48,897 nt of DNA. Origin: Minisyncoccota bacterium (GTDB lineage: Bacteria; Patescibacteriota; Minisyncoccia; Phycocordibacterales; UBA9973). The notes beneath the pieces were generated by a model, which was given only the letters and a program-made list of their open reading frames with translations, had not been told where the DNA came from and searched no databases. The position numbers were made by a program, and so were the translations under genes. The stretch is from NCBI GenBank assembly GCA_018062425.1, contig JAGOSH010000006.1, positions 1 through 48,897 of the forward strand, read 5' to 3'. Shown here one piece after another: positions 1,826 to 20,980 of this stretch (its first letter is position 1; each line of letters begins with the position of its first letter).

Positions 1826-2197
1826 ATGGCGAAAAAGATTAAAAAAATTTTGGTAGTAGAAGACGAGAGGCCCATGGCGCGGGCGCTGGAGCTCAAACTC
1901 ACCCACGAAGGCTTTACCGTAACTGTTGCCTACAATGGCGAGGAGGCTTTGGTTGCACTTGAGAAAGATACCTTCGATATGGTGATGCTCGACATCATGA
2001 TGCCGAAATTGGATGGTTTCGGAGTACTAGAAGAAATGAAAGTTAAGAACTATAAAATTCCAGCGATAGTATTGTCGAACCTAGGTCAAAGCGAGGATGA
2101 AAAAAGGGCCCGAGATTTGGGTGCAAATAAATTTTTCGTTAAATCAAATACTCCGATAATGCGAATAGTGGATTACGCGAAAGAAATTTTACGCTAG
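1826..2197 (+). CDS. CheY-like single-domain response regulator
   Basis: A 123-residue receiver domain with no output domain. The acidic pocket is E12-D13, the phospho-acceptor is D56 in MVMLDIMMPK, the switch Ser is S84 (VLSN) and the conserved Lys is K106 (FFVKS). It would be phosphorylated by a histidine kinase and act by protein contact. It opens the type IV pilus cluster, 28 nt before pilB, and the only kinase in the window closes the same cluster at 8282-10111, so the two are a plausible pair controlling pilus assembly or motor activity. The start is taken as the ATG at 1826; no ribosome-binding site is seen. Confidence 0.85.
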   Translation: MAKKIKKILVVEDERPMARALELKLTHEGFTVTVAYNGEEALVALEKDTFDMVMLDIMMPKLDGFGVLEEMKVKNYKIPAIVLSNLGQSEDEKRARDLGANKFFVKSNTPIMRIVDYAKEILR

Positions 2198-2225: not shown

Positions 2226-3896
2226 ATGAAAATTGATGAACAAAAATTAACAAAAGTTCTACTCGAAGAAAACTACATTACCGAAGATGATTTCAGAAAA
2301 GCCGAAGCGGAAGCTCTAAAAGAAAAAATCAGTATCGTCGCGTACCTTATCAAGACGGGGTTAATTTCTCGTAACTTGATAGGCGAGGCCCTGGCGGAAT
2401 CCTTTGGTATTGTTTATACAGACATCGATTTAAAAAAACCAAGCAAAGAGGTTTTGGATTTGATTCCCGAAGTCTTTGCCAAGGAGTGGCGGGTTATACC
2501 AGCCCAGGCAGTAGATAGCGTCGTGACTGTAGCTACCGATAATCCCGCCAAAGAAGGCTTGGAGTTAGAGTTAAAGAAGATTTTACCTGGAAAGCAAATA
2601 AGTATTACATATTCTCTGCCGGACGACATCGATCAGGCTTTTTTGCTTTATCAAAAATCTCTAGAAACCAGATTTTCAAAAATCATTGCCAGCCAGGGAC
2701 GAGTAGCTCCGGAGATATTGGGCGAGATATTTGAAGATGCTTATGCTTTCAATGCTTCGGACATACACTTTGAACCGGGGATCAAGGACGCCTTGGTACG
2801 TTTCCGAGTAGACGGCGTGCTCAAAGACGCAGGTAAAATCCCAAAAGAGTTTTATGAAAACATTTTGAACCGTATCAAAGTCGAAAGCAGATTGCGCATC
2901 GACGAACATTATGCGGCGCAGGATGGTTCCATGCGTTATACCTCGAAAGTTAGATCAGAAAGCGGGGAGTCTAGAGTTTTCGACCTTAGAACATCAATCG
3001 TTCCAACAGTGGAAGGTGAGAAGGTTGTGCTCCGAGTACTCTCGTCCTATGTCGAAGGATTAGCCTTGTCAGACTTGGGGTTTTCGCCCGAGAATAAGTC
3101 AAAAATCGAACAAGTCGCAGCCAGACCCTTTGGTATGATACTCGTCGTCGGTCCTACCGGTTCTGGTAAAACCACCACCCTCTACGGTGTTTTGAAAATG
3201 TTGAATAATAGAAATGTAAACATAACTACCATCGAAGACCCAGTAGAGTACAAGGTATCTGGCATCAACCAAATTCAAACCAACCAAGAAACTAATCTGA
3301 CTTTTGCCAAAGGTTTGCGCTCCATTGTTCGTCAAGACCCAGACATCATATTGGTTGGTGAAATCCGCGACGAAGAAACAGCCGAAATAGCAGTGAATGC
3401 TGCACTCACTGGGCACTTACTTTTGTCTACTTTTCATTCCAACGATGCCGCCACTGCGATACCGAGATTGCTGGACATGAACATCGAGCCGTTCCTGCTA
3501 GCTTCTACCGTCGAGATCATTATTGGGCAGAGGTTGGTCCGCAAAATATGTGACGTTTGTCGTTTCAGTGTAGAAGTGACCGAAGAAGATGTAGCAAAAC
3601 AATTCAAAGCTGCCGCTAGCTTTTTCCCAGGCAAGCATACTTTGTATAAAGGTAAGGGTTGCAATGCTTGTGCAGGTACTGGCTACAAGGGGCGCACAGC
3701 TATTTTTGAATTTATCGAGATAACGTCTCCAATGGAAGAATTGATTTTGAAAAATCCTTCTTCTAGCGAGATCTGGAAGTTGGCAAAGAGCGAAGGTGCT
3801 CGTTCGCTGTTTGAAGACGGTATCGAAAAAGTAAAAAACGGTGTCACCACACTCGAAGAATTGCTTCGTGTTGCACCTCCACCCGAAGCACATTAA
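2226..3896 (+). CDS. pilB: Type IV pilus assembly ATPase PilB (GspE family)
   Basis: About 556 residues. The N-terminal MshEN/T2SSE_N domain (residues 1-140) is followed by the secretion ATPase core: Walker A GPTGSGKTTT (about 309-318), Asp box, Walker B IILVGEIRDEE and the His box TGHLLLSTFHSND. A tetracysteine zinc site (CDVC and CNAC, about 440-485) marks PilB/GspE extension ATPases rather than PilT. The hexamer powers pilin extraction from the membrane. An upstream frame-compatible start at 2205 exists, but ATG at 2226 is chosen because it begins the MKIDEQKL domain and lies 7 nt after TAAAAT. No PilT retraction ATPase or prepilin peptidase is in the window. Confidence 0.93.
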   Translation: MKIDEQKLTKVLLEENYITEDDFRKAEAEALKEKISIVAYLIKTGLISRNLIGEALAESFGIVYTDIDLKKPSKEVLDLIPEVFAKEWRVIPAQAVDSVVTVATDNPAKEGLELELKKILPGKQISITYSLPDDIDQAFLLYQKSLETRFSKIIASQGRVAPEILGEIFEDAYAFNASDIHFEPGIKDALVRFRVDGVLKDAGKIPKEFYENILNRIKVESRLRIDEHYAAQDGSMRYTSKVRSESGESRVFDLRTSIVPTVEGEKVVLRVLSSYVEGLALSDLGFSPENKSKIEQVAARPFGMILVVGPTGSGKTTTLYGVLKMLNNRNVNITTIEDPVEYKVSGINQIQTNQETNLTFAKGLRSIVRQDPDIILVGEIRDEETAEIAVNAALTGHLLLSTFHSNDAATAIPRLLDMNIEPFLLASTVEIIIGQRLVRKICDVCRFSVEVTEEDVAKQFKAAASFFPGKHTLYKGKGCNACAGTGYKGRTAIFEFIEITSPMEELILKNPSSSEIWKLAKSEGARSLFEDGIEKVKNGVTTLEELLRVAPPPEAH

Positions 3897-3900
3897 TACG

Positions 3901-4995
3901 ATGACAAAGATCAATCCAAAAGGACGGATAAATTTTTTCGAAAATCTTTTTTTAAGCAAGGAAAAGGATTATTTTTTCGCTAACCTGAGCATGTTGCTCG
4001 AAGCTGGCATGACGGTCATGGATGCTATTTCTGCGCTGGCCAAGGAAACGCGTTCGAAGCCGATGCAGAGGATTTTGTCCAAAATGATGGATGATATTGA
4101 AAATGGTTTTCCGCTATCCCAATCACTTTTAAACAACGGATTAGCCAGTACCCATACGGCATCTATAATCCGTGTGGGAGAAGAGTCGGGCAGACTGGCC
4201 CAAAATCTGAAAATCATCGCGGTGAGTGAAGAGAAAAGTCACGAATTCCGTTCCAAAATACGTTCGGCCATGGTCTATCCCGTGTTCGTATTTGGTGTCA
4301 CTATTGTAGTTGGGCTAGCGGTAACCTGGTTTATTTTACCGCGTTTAGCGAGTGTCTTTGACCAGCTCAATGTTACTTTGCCTCCGCTGACCAAGGCTCT
4401 GATCGCGCTTGGTGCTTTCCTTGGGGAATACGGTGCCATTCTGGTACCAGGAATAATTGTTTTTTTAATACTAAGTTTATATTTTTTATTTTATTTCCCC
4501 AAAACAAAACACATAGGTTCGGGGATTCTTTTCTCGGCGCCTGGGATAGGCAAGGTGTTGCATGAAATCGAGCTCGCCCATATGGGGCACATTTTGGGTA
4601 CATTACTTTCGTCCGGTATACCGGTTGTAACCGCACTCGATTCTTTGGTTGAGGCTACGGTATCACATAAACACAAAATTTTTTACAAAAAGATTAAAGA
4701 AAATATCAGCGAAGGAAATTCTTTTGCTCGAACCTTTGATGTTTTGCCGGAGACTAACAAATTTATACCGGTGACTATCGTACGGCTTATAATCTCTGGT
4801 GAACAATCTGGCAAGTTGTCGGATACTTTTACTAAAATCAGCGCGCATTTTGAGTCCAAGATCGACAACACTACTAAAAATCTTTCTGTTATTTTCGAAC
4901 CAGTGCTGTTGGTTATCGTTTGGCTGGGAGTGGTCTTGGTGGCGCTGGCGGTAATCTTACCTATCTATAGTTTGGTGGGTAATTTTAATCAATGA
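3901..4995 (+). CDS. pilC: Type IV pilus inner-membrane platform protein PilC
   Basis: A 364-residue protein with two T2SSF domains (about residues 20-145 and 225-345), each starting with a cytoplasmic helical bundle (DYFFANLSMLLEAGMTVMDA; AHMGHILGTLLSSGIPVVTA) followed by membrane helices, including a pair at about 125-210 and a C-terminal one (VLLVIVWLGVVLVALAVILP). PilC couples the PilB motor to pilin insertion. The start is ATG 3901, 4 nt after the pilB stop; a longer frame would run back into pilB and carries no conserved sequence. The TGA stop overlaps the next ATG as ATGA. Confidence 0.92.
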   Translation: MTKINPKGRINFFENLFLSKEKDYFFANLSMLLEAGMTVMDAISALAKETRSKPMQRILSKMMDDIENGFPLSQSLLNNGLASTHTASIIRVGEESGRLAQNLKIIAVSEEKSHEFRSKIRSAMVYPVFVFGVTIVVGLAVTWFILPRLASVFDQLNVTLPPLTKALIALGAFLGEYGAILVPGIIVFLILSLYFLFYFPKTKHIGSGILFSAPGIGKVLHEIELAHMGHILGTLLSSGIPVVTALDSLVEATVSHKHKIFYKKIKENISEGNSFARTFDVLPETNKFIPVTIVRLIISGEQSGKLSDTFTKISAHFESKIDNTTKNLSVIFEPVLLVIVWLGVVLVALAVILPIYSLVGNFNQ

Positions 4996-5447
4996 TTAAA
5001 GGTAAAAGAGAAAACAATAGTCGCGGGTTCACTATGATTGAAATGATTTTGGTGGTTGCCCTAATTGGAATCATTTCGGGTATAGGCTTACCGCTTTTTA
5101 ACATGATGTCAGGTAGTAATGACCTCGATGTAGCCGAAAACATGCTGGTTGCATCTCTCCGTCGGGCAGAAGTGTTGGCGGCGGCTTCACAAGGAGACAG
5201 CGAATGGGGTGTGGGTGTAGTACCCGGAGCCTTTGTGCTTTTCAAAGGATCGACTTATGCCACGAGAGATGTTGGTTTTGATGAAGTTTATGATATTACT
5301 GATTCAATCCAAACAAGCGGTATGACGGAAGTGGTATTTTCTAAAATGTCTGGAGTTCCGCATTTTGTGGGCGGAGTAACATTAACAAGCCCAGGTGGGG
5401 AGACCAAGCAAATAACAGTCAATGAAAAAGGCAAAATTGATTTTTAA
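4992..5447 (+). CDS. Minor prepilin (GspH/FimT-like)
   Basis: A 151-residue type IV prepilin. A short basic leader ends at G12, cleaved before F13 (RGFTMIEMILVV), with the conserved glutamate at mature position 5 and an unbroken hydrophobic helix to about residue 35. The rest is a small globular domain of beta character. GspH/FimT-type minor pilins start filament assembly at the tip. The ATG overlaps the pilC stop and the 3' end overlaps the next gene by 26 nt, so the pilin genes are translationally packed in one operon. Signal processing would need a prepilin peptidase encoded elsewhere. Confidence 0.85.
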   Translation: MIKGKRENNSRGFTMIEMILVVALIGIISGIGLPLFNMMSGSNDLDVAENMLVASLRRAEVLAAASQGDSEWGVGVVPGAFVLFKGSTYATRDVGFDEVYDITDSIQTSGMTEVVFSKMSGVPHFVGGVTLTSPGGETKQITVNEKGKIDF

Positions 5448-6822
5448 ATTAAAGAGCGGTTTCTCGATAGTAGAAGTGCTTCTAGCTACTTCTCTTTTTG
5501 GTCTTTTAGTTGTCGGGATTGCTGGTTCGTACCTGTATGGAGAAGAATCAACTATGCAATCCGGAGCTCACAGTAGGGCTGTGTATCTAGCCGAAGAAGG
5601 ACTCGAAGCTACCAGAAACCTAAGAGACAATGCTTTTGCAAATTTAACAGATGGAGACCACGGGCTAGCCATACAAGCAGGGCATTATATTTTTTCTGGG
5701 AGTTCTGATATATCTGGTATTTATACTCGCCAAATTACGGTCAAATCTATCGATGATAACAGGAAAGAAGTCACAGCCAATGTTACTTGGAATCAAAGTA
5801 ATTTGCGTGCTGGAGATGTGTCTTTGGTCACTAGACTCACGAATTTTTTTGCTGCTTTGGGTGATTGGTCCAATCCTTTCAAAGAAAGTTTGTTTAATAT
5901 CGCCGGTAATCAAAATGCAGTGAAGGTCCAGGTGGTTGGCGACCATGCTTATGTTATCAGAGCTAACAATAATTCCGCGAATTTTTATATCGTAGATGTC
6001 AGTAATCCTGCCTTACCAGTTCAAGTCGGAACTCTGAATTTATCCAACACACCTCAAAACATTTTTGTAGAAGGGAATTTTGCTTATATTGCTAGCAACA
6101 GCGACAGCAGGGAATTACAAGTTGTAGATGTGACAAATCCAGCCTTGCCAGCCATAGCAGGAGTGTACGACGACCCAGGAACAGACGACGGACGAGGTAT
6201 TTATGTATCAGGAGGTCACGCCTACATGACTTTTGCTTCCGGTGTCGACTTTGCCGTTATTGATGTGTCTAATCCTAATTTACCAGCCATAGCAGGGTCG
6301 CTAAACATAGCAAATGTTCCGAACGAGGTTTTTGTTTCAGGGAAATACGCATACATCGCTTCGAGTAGTAACACAACGGAGGTTTTGGTAGTAGACGTAA
6401 ACGTGCCGGCAAATCCTGTTTTGGCTGGTGCGCTTAACCTGCCCGGCAATACTGATGCTAATACTGTATCCATGAATGGCAGTAATTTATATGTTGGACA
6501 AGGAAATACTTTGCGAGTAGTTGATACTTCAAATCCGCTTGCTCTTGTTTTGTCCGGGAGTTTGATTGTTGGTAATGCAATTACAGACATCGCACTTGAT
6601 TTGGGATCTGCAGGGGATTTACTTTTCCTTTCTAGTTCAGATAATGCAACTGAGTTTGAAGTCATCGACGTATCAGTTTCAGCCTTGCCAGTATTGTTCG
6701 GAGTTTTGGACACTCCAGGGGTTGATAATTTAAATGGTGTGGCTTACAGTCCCACCCTTGATCGTGCTTTTGGAGCAAGCGATAATAATGCAGAAGAGTT
6801 TCAAGTTTTCGCACCACAATAA
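5422..6822 (+). CDS. Prepilin fused to a seven-bladed LVIVD beta-propeller
   Basis: A 466-residue fusion. Residues 1-35 form a prepilin signal (SGFSIVEVLLA: cleavage after G13, Glu at mature +5) and membrane helix. Residues 36-160 resemble a PilV/GspI-type pilin body (AVYLAEEGLEATRNLRDNAF). From about 165 to the end run seven repeats of the LVIVD pattern, an AYI/AYV strand then a VVDVSNPALP-type strand: ANFYIVDVSNPALP, ELQVVDVTNPALP, FAVIDVSNPNLP, EVLVVDVNVPANP, TLRVVDTSNP, EFEVIDVSVSALP and a final EFQVFAPQ. Seven blades imply a closed propeller displayed at a pilus tip, probably for binding a surface or host. The target is unknown. It overlaps the preceding pilin gene by 26 nt. Confidence 0.85.
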   Translation: MKKAKLIFKLKSGFSIVEVLLATSLFGLLVVGIAGSYLYGEESTMQSGAHSRAVYLAEEGLEATRNLRDNAFANLTDGDHGLAIQAGHYIFSGSSDISGIYTRQITVKSIDDNRKEVTANVTWNQSNLRAGDVSLVTRLTNFFAALGDWSNPFKESLFNIAGNQNAVKVQVVGDHAYVIRANNNSANFYIVDVSNPALPVQVGTLNLSNTPQNIFVEGNFAYIASNSDSRELQVVDVTNPALPAIAGVYDDPGTDDGRGIYVSGGHAYMTFASGVDFAVIDVSNPNLPAIAGSLNIANVPNEVFVSGKYAYIASSSNTTEVLVVDVNVPANPVLAGALNLPGNTDANTVSMNGSNLYVGQGNTLRVVDTSNPLALVLSGSLIVGNAITDIALDLGSAGDLLFLSSSDNATEFEVIDVSVSALPVLFGVLDTPGVDNLNGVAYSPTLDRAFGASDNNAEEFQVFAPQ

Positions 6823-6824
6823 TT

Positions 6825-7343
6825 ATGACTAAAACGTACACACAAAAAAAAGGTTTCACTCTAGTAGAGACAATGCTGTATGTTGTTGTCGCCGGGACAC
6901 TAGTTCTATTCATGAGCTTGTTCACGGGCATGATAGTAGACGCGAGGATAAAGAATCGAACTATCGCTGAAGTAGAAGAGCAAGGTGCCCACGTTCTGCG
7001 AGTAGTAACACAATCAGTCAGGAATAGTAATTCCGTCAACGCACCCGCGGCAGGTGTTGTTGGCGCGACCCTAAGCCTAGGAAACATCGACCCTCTACTT
7101 AACCCAACGATTTTTGATTTAAATGGCAGTACTTTGAGGATAAAAGAAGGTGTGGGAGCTCCCATCGAGCTAACCAACTCACATGTTGCTGTATCTAGTT
7201 TGAATTTTGAAAACCTGTCGGAGCTCAATACTCCAGGAGTCGTTCGCGTGTCCTTTGTCCTAACTCATCTAAATCCGGAAAGTAGGAATGAATATGATTT
7301 TAGTAAAACATGGAGCACTAGTATAAGCTTACGCGATAACTAA
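6825..7343 (+). CDS. Minor prepilin (PilW/GspJ-like)
   Basis: A 172-residue prepilin with leader MTKTYTQKKG, cleavage before F11 and Glu at mature +5 (GFTLVETMLYVVV), followed by a hydrophobic helix to about residue 30. The mature domain (residues 45-172) has the GspJ/PilW habit: a helical stretch HVLRVVTQSVRNSNSVN, then beta strands with ILDLNGSTLRIKEG-like sequence. It lies 2 nt after the propeller pilin and 1 nt before the next gene. In the minor pilin complex this would be a wide tip subunit. Assignment to PilW rests on order and general form only. Confidence 0.75.
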   Translation: MTKTYTQKKGFTLVETMLYVVVAGTLVLFMSLFTGMIVDARIKNRTIAEVEEQGAHVLRVVTQSVRNSNSVNAPAAGVVGATLSLGNIDPLLNPTIFDLNGSTLRIKEGVGAPIELTNSHVAVSSLNFENLSELNTPGVVRVSFVLTHLNPESRNEYDFSKTWSTSISLRDN

Positions 7344-7344
7344 A

Positions 7345-7755
7345 ATGGTAAAAACTTATAAAAAAATAAAATCAAAAGCTTTCGTTACATTGATTGGAGT
7401 CATTGTATTTGGTAGTGTATGTATATCGCTGGTGGTGGCTATTTTGATGCTAGGCATCGGTAGCAGTAAAACGAGTATTGCTGTGTATCACAGCAGGCAA
7501 GCGCTCTTTGCGGCACACGCATGCGCTGAAGAAGCGTTGGAAACCATCAGGGAGAATCATTCCTTCGCTGGTAACGGGAATCTAACTTTAGATGCTGCTA
7601 GTTGCAATTTTGCTGTGACCGACAAAGGTGGAGAGAGTAGAAATGTTGCATCTTCGGGTAGTGTTGGTACAATAACAAGGAAAGTCGAGATTGAAATTGA
7701 CGCCATTAGTCCAGTGATTAATGTAACGTCTTGGCAGGAAGTTGCCGACTTCTAA
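7345..7755 (+). CDS. Atypical minor pilin-like protein (PilX/GspK-like position)
   Basis: A 136-residue protein with a basic N-terminus and one hydrophobic helix (residues 14-37, AFVTLIGVIVFGSVCISLVVAI). It lacks the canonical Gly before the cleavage site (Ala12 instead) and has no Glu at mature +5. GspK/PilX-type minor pilins, which cap the tip, are the ones known to lack Glu5, and this gene holds the corresponding place after the PilW-like gene. Two cysteines (in HACAEEALE and ASCNFAV) could form a disulfide. The later region (SRQALFAAHACAEEALETIREN) matches the start of PilX-like pilin bodies. Confidence 0.65.
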   Translation: MVKTYKKIKSKAFVTLIGVIVFGSVCISLVVAILMLGIGSSKTSIAVYHSRQALFAAHACAEEALETIRENHSFAGNGNLTLDAASCNFAVTDKGGESRNVASSGSVGTITRKVEIEIDAISPVINVTSWQEVADF

Positions 7756-7799: not shown

Positions 7800-8282
7800 A
7801 TGAATAAGAATTATAAAAATAAAAAAGGTTTTACATTACTTGAAGTTCTGTTGGTTGTAGCTGCAATCGGAATATTGGCCGGAATAGTTATCGTTGCTTT
7901 AAACCCAGGCAAACAATTGGGCGATACTAGAAATGCGCAACGTCGCAGTGATGTGAATACTGTACTAAATGCAGTTTATCAATACGCCATAGACAACGAT
8001 GGTAACCTGCCGACCGCTATTGATGCCGTCACTGGTAGCTCTCAGGTATTAGGAACCGCAGCTTCAGGTTTGGATTCAACTTGTACTGCTACAACCACAG
8101 TAGCTGCCGGAATTGATTTATCTGCTGACCTTGTACCAACTTACATAGTTGGAATTCCGTCTGATCCAAAGACAGGCACAGCTGCCAATACTGATTATTA
8201 CATTAACAAAGACGCAAATGGTCGTCTGACTGTCGGTTCTTGTGATCCTGAACAATCTGCTGTGATTAGCGTTACTCGCTAA
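7800..8282 (+). CDS. Probable major type IV pilin
   Basis: A 160-residue prepilin with a classic signal (KKGFTLLEVLLVVAAIGILA; cleavage after G10, Glu at mature +5). It then carries NPGKQLGDTRNAQRRSDVNT and QYAIDNDGNLP, the signature seen in many Parcubacteria and Gram-positive-type pilins. Two cysteines (STCTAT and GSCDPE) probably make the C-terminal disulfide loop. The 44-nt gap upstream, long for this operon, contains AGGAG at 7760-7764, but too far from the ATG for a usual ribosome-binding site. The gap may allow separate expression, as expected for the most abundant subunit. The stop TAA overlaps the next ATG. Confidence 0.85.
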   Translation: MNKNYKNKKGFTLLEVLLVVAAIGILAGIVIVALNPGKQLGDTRNAQRRSDVNTVLNAVYQYAIDNDGNLPTAIDAVTGSSQVLGTAASGLDSTCTATTTVAAGIDLSADLVPTYIVGIPSDPKTGTAANTDYYINKDANGRLTVGSCDPEQSAVISVTR

Positions 8283-10111
8283 TGAATATATCCACCGCAA
8301 TACTTTTTCTTTTCCTTGGTGTTGGTATCATCACCAAGGAAAGATGGCGGGGTAATCTAACCAAACTTTTGGGTTTGGTAACTTCTATTATTGTTATTTT
8401 AGAATCCCCGACAATTCACTATTTTGGTGGTTTTAATAAATTAGTTGATCTTTTGGGTGGTCCTTCGTCGCTGTATGAAAAGTCAGTACTTTTCCTTGTG
8501 GGTATAGTATTAGTACTTTCGCCGAGAAGTATTTTGCGAAAGTTTTACTTCGTGGAGTTTACAACTGGATTGTCTTTCTTGTTTTCTGCGTTGTACACCA
8601 TCGGGTTTCTTTTTAAGAACACGGGTATCCTGTCCTACTCTTTTTACCAAGGAGCGCATCCTTATGTGGCCATTCTAAGTACTGTATTTTCATTGACCGC
8701 TTTCTTGATTCTGCGTTCTCGTTATGAAACACGAGAAGCACTAAGCAAAAAACTTTTTCTGCTAGCTATTATTTTCTCTGGAGTTTTGTTTGCTTTAAGT
8801 TACGCATCTTATGTTAGTAACCGATTTACCGATTCAAATTTCGATCCAAAGTTACTTGCAGGTTTTGTGCCTACAGCTATCGCTCTGTTGGGTGTAGTAG
8901 TGAGCGTGCTCGTTCTGTTGGTAGTCTACGCGTTCTCGTCCCTGCGGGAGCGTACAGTGACCTATGCTAGTGAAGTCACCAAAGGTTTGCGACAAGCGAA
9001 AGCAAAAGACGAAGCTATGTTGCTTTCGATCGGCGAGGGCCTGGTGGCTACGGGTAAAGACGGTAACATCGTATTTGTGAATCGTGCCTTTGAGGATTTG
9101 ATGGGTTGGCACGAAGAAGAAGTACAAGGAAAACTTTTTGTTAATTTGGTTCAAATGTTTGATGAAGAAAACCGGGAAATTGAAAAGCAAGACAGACCAA
9201 TATACAAAATACTTCGTGCTCCTTCATCAAGCACCACGAAAGCTACGATAACTTCGAATATGCATTACAAGAGGAAAGACGGCACCATTTTCCCAGTGGC
9301 GATAACCATTTCTCCTATTGTAGTTGAAGGTCAGATCATTGGTGCAGTGGAAGTGTTCCGAGATATTACAGAAGAGAAAGCGGTAGACAAAGAAAAAACA
9401 GAATTCGTATCTTTGGCTTCACACCAGCTCCGCACACCTCTTTCGTCGGTTAACTGGTACACCGAGATGTTGCTAACCGGTGATGCTGGTAAATTAAGTA
9501 AAATGCAGAAAGAATACGTAAAAGAGATTTATGCTGGCAATCAACGCATGATAGATCTGGTAAATGATTTACTCAACGTGTCGCGTCTAGAACTTGGAAC
9601 ATTCTCCGTAAATCCAGAAAAAGTAGACATAGTGTCGGCTGCATTCCTGGCTATCGATGAACAAAAGCAAGAAATCAAGAAAAAGAAAATCAAGATGGAA
9701 ACGGATTTTCCTGACGAGCGTCCACTAGAGATAGATGCCGATCCAAAATTATTGCATATGATTTTTCAAAACCTACTTTCTAATTCGGTAAAATACACAC
9801 ATGAAAAAGGCAATATAAAAATTGCCGTACTAAAAGAAGATGATTTTATTTTAATAAAAGTTACTGACAATGGAATCGGAATACCAAAATCGCAACAAGA
9901 AAAAATATTTACCAAGCTTTTCCGGGCGGATAATGTGAAGGGCGAAGACGTAGAGGGAACTGGCCTAGGGTTATATATCATAAAATCCATCATTGAAGAG
10001 TCAGGGGGTACTATTTCTTTCGAATCCAAAGAAGGCGAAGGTACTACTTTCACTGTGGCGTTGCCACTTCTCGGAATGAAGAAGAAAGAAGGTTCTAGAG
10101 AGCTAAGCTAG
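8282..10111 (+). CDS. Membrane PAS-domain sensor histidine kinase
   Basis: A 609-residue kinase. Residues 1-225 contain about seven membrane helices resembling a 7TM sensor. A PAS domain follows at about 240-365 (SIGEGLVATGKDGNIVFVNR ... GAVEVFRDITEEK). Then come HisKA with the phosphorylated His in SHQLRTPL (about residue 380), and HATPase_c with N box NLLSNSVKYT (about 496), G1 DNGIGIP and G2 GTGLGLYI (about 559). It senses a membrane or intracellular signal and phosphorylates a response regulator, plausibly the one at 1826-2197. Its ATG overlaps the pilin stop, tying it to the pilus operon. It converges on rmuC with 11 bp between, without an obvious hairpin. Confidence 0.9.
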   Translation: MNISTAILFLFLGVGIITKERWRGNLTKLLGLVTSIIVILESPTIHYFGGFNKLVDLLGGPSSLYEKSVLFLVGIVLVLSPRSILRKFYFVEFTTGLSFLFSALYTIGFLFKNTGILSYSFYQGAHPYVAILSTVFSLTAFLILRSRYETREALSKKLFLLAIIFSGVLFALSYASYVSNRFTDSNFDPKLLAGFVPTAIALLGVVVSVLVLLVVYAFSSLRERTVTYASEVTKGLRQAKAKDEAMLLSIGEGLVATGKDGNIVFVNRAFEDLMGWHEEEVQGKLFVNLVQMFDEENREIEKQDRPIYKILRAPSSSTTKATITSNMHYKRKDGTIFPVAITISPIVVEGQIIGAVEVFRDITEEKAVDKEKTEFVSLASHQLRTPLSSVNWYTEMLLTGDAGKLSKMQKEYVKEIYAGNQRMIDLVNDLLNVSRLELGTFSVNPEKVDIVSAAFLAIDEQKQEIKKKKIKMETDFPDERPLEIDADPKLLHMIFQNLLSNSVKYTHEKGNIKIAVLKEDDFILIKVTDNGIGIPKSQQEKIFTKLFRADNVKGEDVEGTGLGLYIIKSIIEESGGTISFESKEGEGTTFTVALPLLGMKKKEGSRELS

Positions 10112-19231: not shown

Positions 19232-20980
19232 ATGCAGAATCAAATAAAAAACTGTAAAAATTGTAAAAAAGATTTTACTATAACTAGTAGCAATTTTTCT
19301 TTCTACGAAAAAATTAAAGTTCCGCCACCAACGTGGTGCCCTGATTGTAGGTGTATGAGACGCATGGTACATCGTAACGAAAGAACACTTCATCGAAGAA
19401 TTTGCGATATAACTGGGAAAAATATAATTTCTATATATCGCCCAGATTGTCCATACACCATCTGCGACAAAGATTATTATTTTTCTGATGCTTTTGATCC
19501 ATTTTCGTACGGAATCCCTTATAATCCTGATAAAAGCTTTTTTGACCAATTCTACATTTTCGCAAAAAAGGTTCCGCTTAGTTCTTTGTTTGTAAGAAAC
19601 TCCATTAATTGCGAGTACAATCAAGACATGGGTGGATCCAAAGACTGTTACCTTTGCTCTAGAACTCATAATTCCCAAAATATGCTTTACACTTATAGGG
19701 GGAATAAATCGAATTATTGTGTGGATTGTTTTCAGTCGTTACAAAGTTCTGAGTTCCTGTATGAATGTATAAATGTTGTAACATGTAGCAATAGCAAGTT
19801 TTTAAATTTTTCTGATAAATGTTCTGACTCAGCGTTCTTGTATAACTGTACTGGATGTGTGGACTGTTTTATGTGTACTGACCTTCGAAACAAGCAATGT
19901 TATTTCAAAAACAAACAATATTCTAGAGAAGAATATAAGAAAATTATAGATTCTTATTCTTTGTCTTCATATAGTGGACAAGAGAAGGCCTTTAAAGAGT
20001 TTGAAGATTTTTTAAAAACACAGCCCAGGAAAAATTTAAATATCATTAGATCAAACGATGTTATAGGAGATAGTATCTCGGATTCGAAAGATTGTAATAC
20101 TGTTTTTAATGTAAAATCATTACAAAATTGTTCGTATATATGGGACTCGAGTAACTTTACAGATTCAATGGATACATATTCAGGCATGTCTACAGAACTT
20201 ACCTATGAAGCCACTGCTACTACCGGGCATAGCAATAATTGTCATTTTTGTGTGAGGGTTTATGAAGGTTCTCGTGATTGTGAATATAGTTGGTTTTTAC
20301 AAAATTGTTCAAGTTGTTTCGGTTGTGTCGGGCTTAAAGATCAGGAGTATTGTATTTTTAATGTTAAATATACAAAGATTGAGTATTTTGAATTATTATC
20401 AAAAATAAAGTTTAAGATGTTAGAAGATGAAGAATATGGAGAATTTTTCCCAATGTACATGTCCCCGTTTGCGTATAATGATACTGTAGCTTATGAATAT
20501 TTCCCTTTGACTCTAGAAGAGACAGAGAAACAAGGAATGAAATGGGGGGAAACAGAAGATAAAAATTATAAACCGACAAAATTATTTTCAGAGTTACCTG
20601 ACGATATTGACGAAGTAGAGGATTCTGTCCTAAAAGAAATAATTTCTTGTGAACATGATGGGGGTTGTAAGCACGGCTGCACTAAAGCTTTCAGAATTAC
20701 TGAAAATGAACTTTCCTTTTACAAAAGACGAAAGATACCTCTTCCAAGGAAGTGCCCTAATTGTAGATATTACAGACGTTTAGAATACCGTAACCCTACA
20801 ACCCTACGAACAGCTGTTTGTATGTGTAAAGGATCAGAATTAAGTAATGGTGTATATAAAAATACTATAATCCATGAGCATGGGGTATCGTTATGTGGTA
20901 AAAATATTGATACGACAATGAAAGAAAATTCCGGTTTTCTTGTTTACTGTGAAAATTGCTACAAGAAAGAGGTGTTTTAA
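19232..20980 (+). CDS. Cysteine-rich protein with duplicated zinc modules
   Basis: A 582-residue protein with dozens of cysteines and no signal peptide. A zinc module of about 45 residues occurs at the N-terminus (C8, C11, C36, C39; FYEKIKVPPPTWCPDCR) and again near 475-520 (FYKRRKIPLPRKCPNCR), each followed by RR...RN. Between them are cysteine-paired repeats: CVDCFMCTDLRNKQCYFKNK ... REEY (about 210-235) and CSSCFGCVGLKDQEYCIFN ... IEYF (about 361-386), whose period suggests a solenoid. It resembles large zinc-ribbon proteins seen in Patescibacteria genomes; no catalytic motif is visible. A nucleic-acid-binding or redox scaffold role is possible but unproven. It stands alone on an AT-rich stretch. 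Confidence 0.6.
   Translation: MQNQIKNCKNCKKDFTITSSNFSFYEKIKVPPPTWCPDCRCMRRMVHRNERTLHRRICDITGKNIISIYRPDCPYTICDKDYYFSDAFDPFSYGIPYNPDKSFFDQFYIFAKKVPLSSLFVRNSINCEYNQDMGGSKDCYLCSRTHNSQNMLYTYRGNKSNYCVDCFQSLQSSEFLYECINVVTCSNSKFLNFSDKCSDSAFLYNCTGCVDCFMCTDLRNKQCYFKNKQYSREEYKKIIDSYSLSSYSGQEKAFKEFEDFLKTQPRKNLNIIRSNDVIGDSISDSKDCNTVFNVKSLQNCSYIWDSSNFTDSMDTYSGMSTELTYEATATTGHSNNCHFCVRVYEGSRDCEYSWFLQNCSSCFGCVGLKDQEYCIFNVKYTKIEYFELLSKIKFKMLEDEEYGEFFPMYMSPFAYNDTVAYEYFPLTLEETEKQGMKWGETEDKNYKPTKLFSELPDDIDEVEDSVLKEIISCEHDGGCKHGCTKAFRITENELSFYKRRKIPLPRKCPNCRYYRRLEYRNPTTLRTAVCMCKGSELSNGVYKNTIIHEHGVSLCGKNIDTTMKENSGFLVYCENCYKKEVF

Follow-up and report, generated by a model that had tools for sequence, protein, structure and literature searches.

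A predicted patescibacterial minor pilin with a seven-bladed LVIVD propeller, candidate for an attachment role

The DNA analysed here (the window) comprises 48,897 nucleotides of contig JAGOSH010000006.1 from assembly GCA_018062425.1, the genome of a Minisyncoccota bacterium in the phylum Patescibacteriota. On the forward strand, positions 5422-6822 form one intact open reading frame with an ATG start, encoding a protein of 466 amino acids that resembles a PilV-like prepilin in its N-terminal part and consists of LVIVD repeats in its C-terminal part. The gene belongs to an operon with the order response regulator, PilB with an MshEN domain, PilC, GspH-like pilin, fusion, two minor pilins, major-type pilin and PAS histidine kinase; PilB, PilC and four other pilin-like genes adjoin the fusion gene, whose start shares 26 bases with the 3' end of the GspH-like gene. 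An earlier note, made from the letters of this DNA, had described a prepilin fused to a closed seven-bladed LVIVD propeller within a block of minor pilin genes. Both parts of this description were borne out, by the intact frame, the repeat matches and the modelled strands given below, and by the position of the gene between the GspH-like and GspJ/ComG-like pilins of a PilB-PilC-pilin operon.

The N-terminus of the protein, MKKAKLIFKLKSG^FSIVEVLLATSLFGLL, is a prepilin signal with Gly-1, Phe+1 and Glu+5, and from the sequence the leader is expected to be cleaved before Phe14. After the cleavage motif SG^FSIVEVLLATSLFGLL, the structural model described below places a helix at residues 16-67. Generic models of N-methylated pilins matched below their thresholds (Pfam, 15.9 versus 21.2 bits; TIGR02532, 14.5 versus 16.3 bits), and the protein is therefore called a prepilin from its motif, from the helix in the model and from homologous pilins that occupy this slot in related operons. 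The protein contains no cysteines. Because the same fusion was found again in independently assembled genomes, a frameshift or assembly artefact can be ruled out. No other LVIVD protein was found in the assembly, which amounts to 529 kb and is 75% complete.

The Pfam family LVIVD (PF08309) matched the whole protein with E=1.3e-28 (98.5 bits versus a cut-off of 20.2). Pfam recognised five repeats; the sequences of the other two, the sixth and seventh, are degenerate. AlphaFold2 was run on a 33-sequence alignment (A4) of the window protein and 32 relatives, comprising orthologues and free LVIVD propellers, and gave a model with a mean pLDDT of 90.4 and a pTM of 0.70. A model from the single sequence reached a pLDDT of only 38.7 and was discarded. 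Beyond the pilin sheet, 28 strands were predicted, one at residues 153-158 followed by 27 others. These make seven blades of four strands only if the strand preceding repeat 1 completes the last blade, which is the usual closure of a propeller. Residues 148-466 could be superposed on the seven-bladed WD40 rings of RACK1 and WDR5 (Z about 35 and 1.9-2.1 Å over ~283 residues, with a Z of 35.7 for RACK1). The structure prediction that the earlier note had proposed as a check thus returned a propeller, and the predicted propeller (residues 153-466) is a closed ring of seven four-stranded blades. The lower pTM fits a model in which the pilin is set at an uncertain angle to the ring. We regard the fusion and its structure as very nearly certain. 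Coordinates are listed in Table 1.

Table 1. Genes of the pilus operon and segments of the fusion protein, with positions in the window.
Feature	Position	Strand	Basis
Response regulator, first gene of the operon	1826..2197	+	Pfam Response_reg; upstream of PilB in relatives too
PilB-type assembly ATPase with MshEN domain	2226..3896	+	Pfam T2SSE E=9.6e-115, MshEN 3.1e-12
PilC-type platform protein	3901..4995	+	Pfam T2SSF E=6.8e-47
GspH-like minor pilin	4992..5447	+	NCBIfam gspH E=1.2e-7, under equivalog cut-off
Fusion: class III leader peptide MKKAKLIFKLKSG	5422..5460	+	Sequence; N_methyl, IV_pilin_GFxxxE and PilV models match sub-threshold
Fusion: PilV-like pilin module, alpha1 helix (16-67) and pilin beta-sheet (78-140)	5461..5844	+	AlphaFold2 model, pLDDT mostly ~90; PilV-slot homologues in relatives
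Fusion: linker (142-152), including Trp149	5845..5877	+	Conservation comparison
Fusion: closing ('velcro') strand (153-158), outer strand of blade 7	5878..5895	+	Strand count and order in model; ring superposition from 148
Fusion: blade 1 (166-205), LVIVD above Pfam cut-off	5917..6036	+	Pfam and model
Fusion: blade 2 (211-249), LVIVD above Pfam cut-off	6052..6168	+	Pfam and model
Fusion: blade 3 (257-294), LVIVD above Pfam cut-off	6190..6303	+	Pfam and model
Fusion: blade 4 (300-338), LVIVD above Pfam cut-off	6319..6435	+	Pfam and model
Fusion: blade 5 (346-382), LVIVD above Pfam cut-off	6457..6567	+	Pfam and model
Fusion: blade 6 (387-429), degenerate repeat missed by Pfam	6580..6708	+	Model; repeat included in search profile
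Fusion: blade 7, three inner strands (437-464), fourth strand 153-158	6730..6813	+	Model
Third minor pilin, GspJ/ComG-like	6825..7343	+	Weak matches only; position kept in relatives
Fourth minor pilin, GspK/PilX-like, without Glu5	7345..7755	+	Position and absent Glu5
Probable major pilin, GspG/PilA-like	7800..8282	+	NCBIfam gspG E=1.8e-8
Membrane PAS histidine kinase, last gene of the operon	8282..10111	+	Pfam HisKA, HATPase_c, PAS; kept in relatives

A scan of contigs for related fusions was made with alignment A2, since the 23-row alignment A1 was too weakly conserved in any stretch for scanning. The search of related pilus loci suggested in the earlier note found the same fusion in the same slot across several lineages: full-length orthologues with 36-46% identity share the operon slot in Staskawicz-, Falkow-, Uhr-, Taylor- and other Patescibacteria. 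In the scan, identities of 41-46% over residues 1-466 were found in Staskawiczbacteria (L101), another bacterium (L102), a Parcubacteria group bacterium (L103), Falkowbacteria (L104), Taylorbacteria (L105) and Uhrbacteria (L106). The Kuenenbacteria orthologue (L107) is cut by a contig end, and more divergent fusions occur in Saccharibacteria and Peregrini-/Peribacteria. Within the reach of the contigs, the order response regulator, PilB, PilC, pilin, pilin with propeller, pilin, pilin, PilA-like pilin, histidine kinase was kept in Staskawicz-, Falkow-, Uhr-, Taylor-, Kuenen- and Saccharibacteria. A profile of pilin plus propeller was matched from start to end in one frame in 28 of the 287 evenly sampled genomes of the phylum; this count, taken from the listed rows, includes the window's own genome and covers 16 family labels. 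In the window's genus there is a second operon type (type A), in which PilB is shorter and the corresponding slot holds a divergent fusion of pilin and propeller; some relatives have a plain PilV, without propeller, at this position. In one genome region (L091:6742-9696, the same as L108:4495-7449), adjacent GspH-like and PilV-like pilins each carry a seven-bladed LVIVD propeller.

The number of blades was constant in the relatives checked. A repeat number drifting between 4 and 9 in close relatives, which the earlier note had named as evidence that would speak against a closed ring, was rejected. All seven blade intervals were filled in every complete fusion aligned, insertions within the ring were at most 24 residues (about half a blade) and deletions at most 13. 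No gain or loss of a whole blade was found in the ~35 fusions checked, a set from which the truncated L107 and three proteins of 613-748 amino acids that had diverged too far for alignment (L065, L097, L098) were excluded. Longer relatives of ~610-665 amino acids have an extra C-terminal domain past blade 7 (L111, L113, L114, L115, L118) or a larger N-terminal part (L109), at the same blade number. The C-terminal ~110 residues of the former five proteins are conserved across several lineages and look like a beta-sandwich.

In 20 type-A proteins, a cysteine in the linker (window position 145) occurs together with a cysteine in blade 7 (444, n=11) or in the pilin sheet (113, n=9), never with both. 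The carriers (e.g. L090, L067, L086, L093) are related and hence do not represent 20 independent events. A wider set added one further 145/444 case and two proteins with cysteines at 145 and 156. These pairs are possibly alternative disulfides that would lock the ring or the stalk, and the pattern supports ring closure in type A.

The genes around the fusion suggest where in the pilus it may be located. Absence of Glu5 is characteristic of GspK, and Glu5 is missing from the fourth minor pilin in the window and in six relatives; this pilin had no family match in the Pfam and NCBIfam libraries. From gene order, weak similarity (library matches under equivalog cut-offs) and the missing Glu5, we infer that the four consecutive pilin genes form an H/I/J/K-like tip set. 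The response regulator and the PAS histidine kinase flank the pilus genes in distant relatives as well, which suggests that expression of the pilus may be regulated.

The organism has at least two type IV pilus (T4P) loci. A second locus, on contig C2 of the same genome, contains PilM/N/O-like genes, PilB, PilT and PilC, named from their size, order and sequence start and from T2SSE matches. A PilT-like ATPase was found only at this second locus and not in the fusion operon, in an assembly that is incomplete.

Modular pilins, and a propeller pilin in strain TM7x, are already known in kind. The minor pilin PilX2 of Nanosynbacter lyticus TM7x (Saccharibacteria) has a C-terminal seven-bladed RCC1 propeller and sits in a pilus without its own retraction ATPase, beside a PilT-bearing pilus; its deletion reduced the host-bound fraction from ~10.6% to 4.6%, while filaments were still formed (PMC12206443). 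Similarly, the window protein is a patescibacterial minor pilin with a seven-bladed propeller in a PilT-less system beside a PilT-bearing T4P. PilX2 carries RCC1 repeats, lacks a predicted PilD site and bears a PilX-type name; the window protein instead has LVIVD repeats, a canonical prepilin signal and a PilV/GspI-like slot in a PilB-PilC-pilin operon; in Pfam, the RCC1 family had no match in it at E<=1. With PilB and PilC of S. sanguinis it shares the combination of a pilin module and an unrelated functional module that the filament would present, a propeller here instead of vWA or lectin modules, and the vWA module of S. sanguinis PilB binds host proteins (PMC8179133). That survey counts 264 architectures of modular type IV pilins, many of them from candidate phyla, and shows the top 15.

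The PilY1/PilC tip adhesins (PF05567) likewise present a beta-propeller through minor pilins at the pilus tip, as presumed for the window protein, but PilY1 itself is no pilin, and its propeller belongs to another family. PF05567 had no match in the window protein (P0001) at E<=1; a genome-wide search was silent, as was its control set. The LVIVD or choice-of-anchor B surface proteins (PF08309, TIGR04312; PMC2447325) have the same repeat and propeller on other surface anchors, whereas the window protein is anchored by a pilin. TIGR04312 scored 34 bits against a cut-off of 100, which indicates a similar propeller outside this family. In the literature searched, LVIVD and pilin were not found mentioned together, and LVIVD was not noticed in the passages of PMC8179133 covered. 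The literature searched likewise gave no description of an LVIVD propeller in a PilV-like slot, of its phylum-wide spread at a constant number of blades or of its repeated occurrence on different minor pilins; the supplementary tables of PMC8179133, outside that search, may list the architecture.

Taken together, the fusion protein is probably a modular minor pilin with a binding head borne at the pilus tip. The tip location is inferred from the H/I/J/K-like gene order, the missing Glu5 of the fourth pilin and published tip complexes; moreover, a closed ring of 34 kDa would be hard to fit within a helical pilus. PilD would cleave the leader, and the pilin module would join a GspH/I/J/K-like minor pilin complex that primes the filament built by the adjacent PilB and PilC. 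Projecting from the tip, the propeller would act as a rigid head for binding, by which the pilus could make contact with a surface or another cell and hold on to it. By analogy with TM7x, the pilus without its own retraction ATPase may carry the propeller pilin to tether hosts, and motility would be driven by the PilT-bearing one. A role in attachment is likely, and is the best reading because adhesive modular pilins are established (PMC8179133) and because deletion of PilX2 affects host binding in TM7x (PMC12206443). A host cell as the partner, which the earlier note had proposed, is less probable than the binding head itself; the 529 kb assembly and the lineage suggest that the organism depends on a host.

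Several results weigh against a host-binding head. Comparison across orthologues gave none of the hypervariability expected of a strain-specific binder of host receptors, for which the earlier note had proposed to compare the blade surface: mean identity was 0.43-0.48 in the propeller and 0.50-0.54 in the pilin module. At 0.48, mean identity of the whole fusion slightly exceeded that of the neighbouring minor pilins (0.42-0.44), and the propeller evolves no faster than they do. Conservation close to that of the pilin body, unlike in many host-range adhesins, speaks for a conserved ligand or a structural function rather than for a host-specific binder that evolves fast. The BC and DA loops had a mean identity of 0.35 versus 0.45 for AB and CD, a contrast that carries no claim of a hypervariable face, as AB and CD hold the repeat consensus. 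Furthermore, 13 polar positions are retained within the orthologue group of the window protein but seldom occur in free LVIVD propellers. They include Trp149 at the junction and, on inner strands, Lys168, Gln170, Glu302, Thr348 and Tyr442; all were picked post hoc via conservation cut-offs and serve as leads for mutation only. Their fixation across distant lineages suggests one conserved ligand, or a contact within the pilus, rather than variable host receptors. Finally, the assembly yielded no prepilin peptidase, whereas 36 of the 41 genomes searched have one. This absence is most likely an assembly gap; contig C2 ends shortly past PilC.

The same conservation bears on an assembly role, in which the propeller would cap the tip complex or act as its priming platform, in the way that Myxococcus pili are primed by PilY1, and would have little or no specificity for a ligand of its own. 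A propeller almost as conserved as its pilin module, in a protein slightly better conserved than the flanking minor pilins, would fit such a role, as would Trp149, which is retained in both kinds of pilin-fused propeller and lacking in free ones. In type A, the linker cysteine, paired by presence with a cysteine of blade 7 or the pilin sheet, would stiffen the head or junction, and PilY1 together with minor pilins primes the pilus according to the title of PMC7541494. However, the plain PilV in the same slot of several relatives implies that the ring is not generally needed for assembly, and TM7x without PilX2 still makes filaments (PMC12206443). We consider a purely structural role unlikely.

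Less probable still is a Com-like pilus whose propeller captures DNA or another substrate for import. The operon lacks PilT, the genome encodes a ComEC protein, and the modular pilin ComZ of other bacteria is discussed as DNA-binding (PMC8179133), but LVIVD propellers are generic surface modules, as the sub-threshold choice-of-anchor B match (TIGR04312) illustrates. A catalytic head resembling the Sphingobium phosphotriesterase, the nearest solved sequence relative, is very improbable: although 5hrm/5ioj were the top PDB profile and fold matches (E ~3e-7; Foldseek rank 1), the sequence match spans only ~110 profile positions, no His or Cys of the propeller is conserved among seven orthologues, and by VIA-align Z the matches listed are filled by WD40 rings (RACK1, WDR5).

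Little is known of how Patescibacteria locate their hosts and stay attached to them, and PilX2 of TM7x is the sole propeller pilin tested according to the literature searched. A tip-borne binding head in a conserved slot of many uncultured lineages would make for a well-delimited group of candidate adhesins that offer invariant residues and a soluble domain. The pilins of TM7x are weakly conserved across Patescibacteria (PMC12206443), whereas this fusion is conserved end to end, at ~45% between distant lineages. One could speculate that a host-tethering pilus, of ancient origin or spread by horizontal transfer, is common to Patescibacteria, with propellers grafted independently on H-, I- and K-like tip pilins as a general principle of attachment, and with a conserved ligand bound in the central channel via Lys168, Gln170, Glu302, Thr348 and Tyr442. 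We hold this extension to be rather doubtful.

Further architectures were seen in related pilus loci. In L078 (7044-9374) and L080 (6167-8419), both from the window's genus, LVIVD-like propeller repeats lie inside a PilX-like pilin, and the sequence flanking the repeats resembles one split domain; this layout is nearer to TM7x PilX2 than that of the window protein. A secreted protein directly after PilC in L070 (7276-10317) has no prepilin signal and ~13-15 LVIVD repeats, enough for two seven-bladed rings. Pilins of the same block also carry non-propeller modules in L085 (10249-12456) and L070 (12207-14411), namely repeated TTNEE-type domains, and InlB-like repeats with another repeat region; their variety suggests exchange of modules. 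Elsewhere in the window, positions 19232-20980 encode a protein of 582 residues with many CxxC pairs, resembling zinc ribbons.
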